64,000 nt of DNA from Halorussus gelatinilyticus (lineage in GTDB: Archaea; Halobacteriota; Halobacteria; Halobacteriales; Haladaptataceae), in NCBI RefSeq assembly GCF_023238445.1, contig NZ_CP096658.1, positions 3,286,001-3,350,000 of the forward strand. Direction: 5' to 3'. The position numbers were made by a program, and so were the translations under genes. Below the pieces are notes generated by a model. It worked only from the letters and a program-made list of their open reading frames with translations, had not been told where the DNA came from and ran no database searches. Shown in pieces: positions 28,521-58,661 of this stretch (positions are counted from its first letter, which is position 1; every line of letters begins with the position of its first letter).

Positions 28521-28574
28521 CGAACACCGCGAACACCGCGAACACCGCGAACACCGCGAACACCGCGAACACCG
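28521..28574. repeat. six perfect 9-nt tandem repeats (CGAACACCG)
   Basis: The unit CGAACACCG occurs six times without interruption. There are no spacers. It does not lie in a supported gene, so it is a short microsatellite-like array, perhaps variable between strains. Confidence 0.85.
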
Positions 28575-28588
28575 CCTCGAAAGCCCCC

Positions 28589-57575: not shown

Positions 57576-58394
57576 TCAGTACGACTGGGAACCTTGGAAC
57601 GACTGACCCTGTGGCTGCTGGCTCATCTCTCCCTGCGGCTGTTGGCCCATTTGGCCCTGCGGCTGTTGGCCCATTTGGCCCTGCGGCTGTTGGCCCATTT
57701 GGCCCTGCGGCTGTTGGCCCATTTGGCCCTGCGGCTGCTGGCTCATCTGATCCATCTGGCCCATTCCGCCGGACTGCTGGCCCATCCCGCCGGACTGCTG
57801 TTGGACCTGTTCGCGGATGCCCGTCGTCGGACTCTGCTGGCCGCCGCTGATGGAGTCCAACAGCTTGGTCGTCGCGTCCAGCGCCTGCTGGACCGCCTGA
57901 TACGTCTCCTGCACGTGGGGCGACTGCTGGTGCTGCTGGAGAATCGGGAGGCCCTGCTGGGCGACGCGCACGAACGCCTCGGCGACTTCCGGACCGTTGA
58001 TGGAGTCGCGCGCGATGAGCTTCTCGTTCAGCGACGCGAGGTCCGAGAGGTCCTCACAGAGGCGAGCGCACTCGGCCATCTGCGGGCCGCTCTCGATGCA
58101 CTTGTCGGCGCACCACTCGGCGATCTCGACCACGCGGTCGAAGGATTCGAGCGCCTGATTCAGCTCGTTCGTCATCTCAGACTCGAACTGATGGCCGACG
58201 TTCTCGTGGGTCATCTGGTGGCTCTGGCCGGACTGCTGGGTTCCCATCTGGCCCGGCTGACCCGTCTGGCCCATTTGGCCTGTCTGCTGTTCGATGCCCC
58301 GAGACTGCATCGACTGGCCCGTCTGCTGGCCGGTCGGCCCGCCGTACGTCTGTTGACCCGTGCTTCCCGTGGACTGTTGATACTGTTCTGACAT
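57576..58394 (-). CDS. Q/M/G-rich repeat protein with a Cys-containing four-helix core
   Basis: A 272-residue protein with three parts. Residues 1-60 are Gln/Gly/Thr-rich and disordered. Residues 65-185 are a helical bundle with EWCADKCIESGPQMAECARLCEDLSDLASL, four Cys in CxxxC arrangements like those in DUF326/copper-storage-type bundles. Residues 190-270 are a tandem repeat of MGQQPQGQ plus M-rich variants. Met and Gln-rich sequence with a possible copper-thiol core suggests metal binding or phase-separating behaviour. No signal peptide. A CATTATG TATA-like box lies 32 nt before the start. Confidence 0.75.
   Translation of the reverse strand: MSEQYQQSTGSTGQQTYGGPTGQQTGQSMQSRGIEQQTGQMGQTGQPGQMGTQQSGQSHQMTHENVGHQFESEMTNELNQALESFDRVVEIAEWCADKCIESGPQMAECARLCEDLSDLASLNEKLIARDSINGPEVAEAFVRVAQQGLPILQQHQQSPHVQETYQAVQQALDATTKLLDSISGGQQSPTTGIREQVQQQSGGMGQQSGGMGQMDQMSQQPQGQMGQQPQGQMGQQPQGQMGQQPQGQMGQQPQGEMSQQPQGQSFQGSQSY
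57607..57750. repeat. 24-nt tandem repeat encoding MGQQPQGQ-type units
   Basis: Six 24-nt units, starting at 57607, 57631, 57655, 57679, 57703 and 57727. The four central units are identical; the first and last are variants (both end ...GCTGGCTCATCT...). Identical copies imply recent expansion or gene conversion, and the number is likely to vary between strains. Confidence 0.9.
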
Positions 58395-58422
58395 GGTTGG
58401 TGACTTCCCTGCGTAGGCGTCT

Positions 58423-58429
58423 CATAATG
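58423..58429 (-). promoter_or_regulatory. TATA-like box of the Q/M/G repeat gene
   Basis: CATTATG on the minus strand, centred 32 nt before the ATG at 58394. Confidence 0.45.
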
Positions 58430-58661
58430 GCGAGATGCCGCGCCGCAGGCGAACGAGGCTTCGCCGGATTCGCAGATAAACCGGCGCGACCGTTAGCGAT
58501 TGTTCAACCGGACAACGGTGTATTTCCCGCCGTACGAGGTCGAAAAAACCGATTATCGCGGAGAAAGAAACATCCGGTTACGCCGACGTTTCGAGACCGT
58601 TTCCCGATTCAACGCCGGGTTTCGACGGGTGAATCCGGAGACCTCGCCGTGCTTGACAAGG

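Follow-up and report, generated by a model that had tools for sequence, protein, structure and literature searches.

A haloarchaeal Csp3 homologue with a filled core, a retained mouth site, and glutamine-rich tails, and the small putative regulon marked by its promoter element

Copper storage proteins (Csps) of the Csp3 type are four-helix bundles defined by a Cys-lined core, and the characterised members hold 16–19 Cys residues (PMC10155185). At the mouth of the bundle lie MtCsp3 Cys54 and the α3–α4 His motif (BsCsp3 H84, H86, and H88), and position 42 in BsCsp3 numbering (MtCsp3 Asn58, SlCsp3 Asp61, RkCsp3 Met46) sits between the main copper core and the mouth (PMC10155185); by its spacing to Asn58, we equate MtCsp3 Cys54 with BsCsp3 position 38. 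The non-classical RkCsp3 has 16 Cys and binds about 17 Cu(I) (PMC10155185). Here we describe a relative of these proteins that is encoded by a Halorussus species at positions 57576–58394 (−) of the 64,000-nucleotide stretch of DNA that was analysed (hereafter, the window).

The reading frame starts with ATG, is open throughout, and specifies 272 residues that the original prediction had read as disordered Gln/Gly tails around a helical core, a description with which the frame, its composition, and AlphaFold2 (AF2) models agree. Orthologues are present in all 17 other Halorussus genomes that were searched, and comparison of the core with 14 of these 17 orthologues gave dN/dS values of 0.04–0.41, from which we conclude that the gene is real and that purifying selection acts on it. 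No further Gln-tailed proteins were found in the Halorussus genome, as the marginal matches proved not to be Gln-tailed on inspection. Gene order is fixed within Halorussus (TFE – DUF2110-like – membrane protein – CinA-like – gene – NAD-kinase-like – PhoU-like; neighbour names read from the sequences alone) and does not amount to a copper-gene context. Outside this genus, no neighbour was found to track the tailed family, so that the neighbourhood says little about function.

The core (residues 70–186; 57837–58187 (−)) is genuinely homologous to Csps, as had been supposed when it was first described as a copper-storage-like bundle. From an alignment of fetched loci that included two canonical Csp3s, which possibly helped the model, AF2 builds a four-helix bundle with a pLDDT of about 98 in the helices. 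The leading PDB matches of this model (Foldseek, VIA) are all Csps or uncharacterised proteins with a Csp fold, for example 6q58_D with a VIA Z of 18.2 (rmsd 1.5 over 110 residues), and the first unrelated PDB chain follows at a Z of 12.7. Moreover, alignment of a profile of nine Halorussus orthologues with the canonical Csp3 of the same genome by hhalign (98.0 %, E 2.4e-13) provides a link between sequence profiles that stands by itself, independently of the fold model. Only with the canonical paralogue, with the wider profile, or through the fold does Csp homology become visible: no Pfam family matched the whole Gln-tailed protein, PF03860 (DUF326) was matched only at the canonical Csp3 gene and not at the Gln-tailed one, PDB searches with the single sequence or a Halorussus-only profile found nothing but designed helical proteins with marginal E-values, and an NCBIfam search gave a weak match to Csp1 (TIGR04401; E 0.0025, 18 bits, cut-off 100 bits). 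The canonical Csp3 (L002, 115 aa) matches PF03860 above the cut-off and the solved Csp3 structure 5fig with an E of 5.7e-17. A CopZ-like HMA gene and one for a DUF4396 membrane protein lie nearby (L002, 1486–1833 and 2459–2998).

What the original prediction had called a CxxxC-rich core comes down to two CxxxC motifs, i. e., four Cys (C95, C99, C109, and C113; 58056–58112 (−)), which align with BsCsp3 C22, C26, C38, and D42 and are invariant in all 18 Halorussus orthologues. Position 42 is thus a Cys here and in haloarchaeal Csp3s, and an Asp in BsCsp3. H155 and H160 (57915–57932 (−)) are the counterparts of H84 and H88 in the mouth His motif; H160 is invariant in Halorussus, and H155 is exchanged for Tyr in three orthologues. 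From the 19 Cys positions of BsCsp3, only 22, 26, and 38 are kept, whereas 16 (8, 12, 15, 19, 45, 49, 67, 70, 74, 77, 81, 89, 92, 96, 99, and 103) are occupied by other residues, mostly small or hydrophobic ones (Ala, Phe, Val, Leu, Gly, Thr). The retained Cys, the equivalents of H84 and H88, and the 16 filled positions together indicate that the deep store was plugged and the mouth kept. Judged by these residues, the protein is not a copper store; since a core lined with Cys, the defining feature, was tested for and is absent, we do not class it among the copper storage proteins. The loss of 16 of 19 BsCsp3 Cys and the separate canonical Csp3 in the genome speak against the copper-storage role originally proposed, and bulk storage of copper by the Gln-tailed protein can practically be discounted.

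Both tails are predicted to be disordered, with a pLDDT below 45 throughout in the AF2 model of the full-length protein. The N-terminal tail (residues 1–69; 58188–58394 (−); pLDDT about 35–45) is rich in Gln (29 %), Gly (20 %), Thr, and Ser, and the C-terminal tail (residues 187–272, about 90 aa; 57579–57836 (−); mostly disordered by prediction) contains 39 % Gln, 22 % Gly, and 10 % Met and ends in Tyr. An 80-residue segment from residue 193 holds 33 Gln and Asn and passes the classical prion-like threshold (at least 30 Gln+Asn in 80 residues), which is reached by 19 of 61 family members. Asp and Glu make up about 2.9 % of the tails as compared to 17–25 % of six neighbouring proteins. The first 60 residues contain no hydrophobic stretch (maximum KD mean −1.06), and therefore no Sec or Tat signal. 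Among relatives, the tails are conserved by composition and not by sequence: Gln/Gly richness, the lack of charge, and the C-terminal aromatic are kept (42 of 53 C-terminal tails end in Tyr, Phe, or Trp vs 3 % aromatic residues in the tail body; raw counts, related sequences), whereas Met is not conserved and varies from 0 to 9 per C-terminal tail across the Halorussus orthologues.

Part of this composition is encoded in tandem repeats. A 24-nt unit (MGQQPQGQ) detected by TRF spans 57607–57746 (−) in 5.8 copies, and the four identical units noted originally are indeed found at 57642–57737 (−) (57642–57665, 57666–57689, 57690–57713, and 57714–57737), with none expected in shuffled sequence. A repeat search also revealed a 21-nt unit (QQSGGMG) in 2.1 copies at 57756–57800 (−). 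Other Halorussus orthologues carry about six copies of a 21-nt unit (L004), 3.7 copies of a 24-nt unit (L008), or a unit reading MGQQSGGQ (L013). Since the units vary in this way between species, repeat expansion appears to recur with the composition being retained; the additional claim that the repeat is expanding now is supported only as far as this variation goes. Elsewhere in the window, a perfect 9-nt tandem repeat, CGAACACCG, is present in 6.1 copies (28521–28575).

Searches of haloarchaeal genomes together with the fetched loci yielded a family of 61 distinct proteins (three canonical Csp3s excluded), whose members in a plasmid collection are annotated as "hypothetical protein". Nearly all carry Gln/Gly-rich tails, some with a short C-terminal tail or none, and tail composition and terminal aromatic are alike across several haloarchaeal families. 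In a tree that was built without the ligand columns and has few columns and several weak internal forks, the 61 proteins form one clade split from the canonical Csp3s with 100/100 support. The number of bundle Cys falls in a series, from 13–15 in the canonical proteins to 9, 5–6, 4, and finally 0–1 in tailed relatives. The mouth block {C22, C or M26, C38, C42, H88} is complete in 46 of the 61 and lacks H88 alone in three (whole or nearly so in 49); it is wholly absent in seven, reduced to C42 in four, and to two of its five residues in one (absent or broken in 12). Parsimony gives three losses, i. e., the mouth site was lost at least three times. Conservation of the core Cys, put forward with the original prediction as its test, thus holds within Halorussus (18 of 18) and breaks down in the wider tailed family. 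In a Halostella-type clade, C26 is replaced by Met and C89 is kept, and this residue set still looks like a plausible one for Cu(I). The all-or-none behaviour of the block implies that the site, where kept, works in some way as a unit, and its repeated loss from proteins that keep their tails suggests that the tails, or the bundle displaying them, have the more basic function. Site-less members have 39 % Gln in their tails (32 % in site-keeping ones) and 5.8 % Met (7.3 %, p 0.11), which argues against Met tails in the service of copper. The idea of a Met-rich copper-binding tail was consequently rejected, Met being neither conserved between orthologues nor significantly reduced where the Cys site is gone.

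Upstream of the gene lies the sequence AACRGTS-N6-GTTTA (58477–58494 (−)) with a TATA-like GTTTAT at its 3' end, and alignment of upstream regions revealed a weaker second copy of the upstream half-site (AACAATCGCT; 58495–58504 (−)) about one helical turn away. Such a second half-site is found 9–10 bp upstream at many element sites, including those of other genes. The element precedes all Halorussus orthologues and many relatives in other genera, and it is absent at the canonical Csp3s. It occurs seven times in the 3.67-Mb genome (at the tailed gene and about six others) vs zero for the reversed pattern, 126 vs 3 times in 17 Halorussus genomes, and 60 vs 3 times in nine genomes of a sister genus (g3); genomes of a further genus (g10) hold 0–2 copies each, in most of them at the tailed gene. 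Within the tailed family, it is present at 35 of the 49 members that keep the site and at none of the 12 that lack it (raw counts, related sequences). The genes downstream recur between species. We take AACRGTS-N6-GTTTA to be a new haloarchaeal promoter element marking a small putative regulon, with membership defined by this one motif; a halolysin promoter paper contained no match to it.

The element loci (58477–58494 of the window, L115–L121, and L150–L219) point to putative regulon members such as a secreted DUF7282 protein (PF23951, E 1.3e-40), a DUF7344 winged-helix regulator that has membrane helices (PF24035, E 5.1e-28), two N-x-T-rich proteins that are likewise secreted, and, in g3, a polysaccharide deacetylase (PF01522), where "secreted" and "winged-helix with membrane helices" are readings of the sequences. 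No copper genes were found in the regulon sample. Also among the putative members are disordered proteins (MATDD...; L116, L156, L167, L174, L185, and L192) that are rich in Arg, Gly, and Pro and carry RYG or YG motifs, and their C-terminus is conserved near RQRDFQRDKSGxxYRRR; they are possibly partners of the Gln-tailed protein. In four sampled Halorussus species, moreover, a stretch of about 250 nt right behind the element is strongly conserved and predicted to be highly structured (L121, about 1515–1790, i. e., G000:C1 near 3499433–3499700; also L150, L159, and L183). It contains no convincing reading frame, has no Rfam match, and is a candidate non-coding RNA of the regulon.

The tailed gene itself has a 5' leader of about 60 nt in Halorussus, in which a hairpin of two nested stems (58405–58453 (−)) is predicted directly upstream of the ribosome-binding region. 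The fold z is −2.1 in the window and as low as −5.1 in orthologues. A 17-sequence alignment contains 14 double-sided changes that keep pairing as compared to 5.0 ± 2.1 after shuffling (0 of 500 shuffles reach 14), and sliding the pairing partner lowers leader pairing from 84 % to 40–57 %. From a plain MAFFT alignment, RNAalifold recovered only the outer stem; for the covariation analysis, the inner stem was specified explicitly. There is no Rfam match at the leader, and the leaders of relatives from other genera form different hairpins at this position. The hairpin may stabilise the mRNA or set its translation.

The all-or-none site and its repeated loss with the tails kept lead us to rank first a Csp3-derived cytosolic protein remodelled into a self-associating scaffold, for and against which we see the balance as even, and second a low-capacity metal or redox protein. 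Probably, a former metal store now serves as a sticky scaffold, turned on along with genes for the cell surface. By analogy with the tetrameric Csps, the bundle would oligomerise and thus present about eight sticky tails per particle, and these uncharged, aromatic-ended tails could associate in molar KCl to give gel-like or condensate assemblies, tail composition being by itself no proof of condensation. Within the scaffold reading, the mouth is best seen as a vestigial or switch-like thiol/metal site, which might hold a single small cluster of Cu(I) or Zn(II), or form disulfides; we incline slightly towards the view that it still binds metal. Its metal or disulfide state could then tune tail assembly, or the site could pass metal on. 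A fully elaborated version seems rather unlikely as a whole. Here, the Csp mouth site would gate a condensate scaffold by metal or redox state and so switch the self-association of the Gln/Gly tails at molar salt concentrations, and the regulon would be a dedicated one to which secreted surface proteins, a disordered partner rich in Arg and Gly, and a structured RNA also belong. For the second-ranked reading, the mouth would be a working Cu(I) relay, sensor, or thiol switch, and the tails would only solubilise or localise it. The four Cys and the His retained as a block, the still plausible Cu(I) ligand set of the Halostella-type clade (Met at position 26, C89), and the preference of the promoter element for site-keeping members (raw counts from related sequences) speak for such a role; nevertheless, tails have outlasted the site at least three times and the regulon sample is devoid of copper genes, and we consider it conceivable but doubtful.

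Other readings seem less probable. If the bundle were to hold many Cu(I) with Met tails adding ligands, the Csp fold and homology, the four Cys, and the 10 % Met of the C-terminal tail would be explained, but not the presence of 4 Cys where characterised Csp3s have 16–19 (PMC10155185), the filling of the lost positions, the fluctuating Met content of orthologues, the canonical Csp3 elsewhere in the genome with a CopZ-like gene nearby, or the absence of a copper context, and such a store is scarcely credible. Very improbable, too, is a drifting relic, i. e., a decaying Csp paralogue with tails as by-products of replication slippage: the tandem units are recent and differ between species, as slippage would have it, yet the core is under purifying selection, promoter element and leader hairpin are conserved, and composition and terminal aromatic are common to several haloarchaeal families. 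Finally, the protein could leave the cell by a non-classical route and join the extracellular matrix with the co-regulated secreted proteins. The DUF7282 and N-x-T-rich members of the regulon and the polysaccharide deacetylase of the sister genus are compatible with this, whereas the N-terminus, with neither a hydrophobic stretch nor, hence, a Sec or Tat signal, is not, making a matrix component unlikely.

The family thus offers an evolutionary series on one fold, in which a metal site shrinks and is then lost, and disordered tails are gained and mostly kept. On this series, the path from a metal store to a structural protein can be put to the test. The same holds for the question of whether condensates can be built from neutral Gln/Gly tails at near-saturating salt, a setting in which proteins are mostly strongly acidic. 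The element, in turn, would define a small regulon conserved across at least two haloarchaeal genera, with a wider range at the tailed gene. Descriptions of the tailed family, the mouth-only site, or the promoter element and its regulon were not found in the open-licence papers searched, and searches for work on archaeal prions and condensates and on Gln-rich coat proteins yielded nothing on the tailed family.

The Csp fold is already known, and what seems to be new is the tailed, core-plugged subfamily with its mouth-only site and its regulon. With Csp3 (BsCsp3/YhjQ, MtCsp3, SlCsp3, and the haloarchaeal L002), the Gln-tailed protein shares the four-helix bundle (VIA Z up to 18.2), the aligned ligands C22, C26, C38, H84, and H88, and a WCADxC...CxRLC motif; it differs in having 4 Cys instead of 16–19, a filled core, and two disordered tails, as well as in its regulation and gene neighbourhood. 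Csp1 (TIGR04401) has the same fold and gives a weak profile match, but the Gln-tailed protein stays far below the 100-bit cut-off, carries no Tat signal, and has few Cys. The likeness to prion-like and other Gln-rich low-complexity domains (33 Gln+Asn in 80 residues, no charge, Gly, Ser, and Tyr present) is one of composition, and unlike these domains the tails are almost without Asn and Tyr is rare. RkCsp3, a Csp3 in which the mouth ligands are likewise altered (PMC10155185), is perhaps the most instructive counterpart: it loses mouth ligands and keeps the store, whereas the Gln-tailed protein does the reverse.
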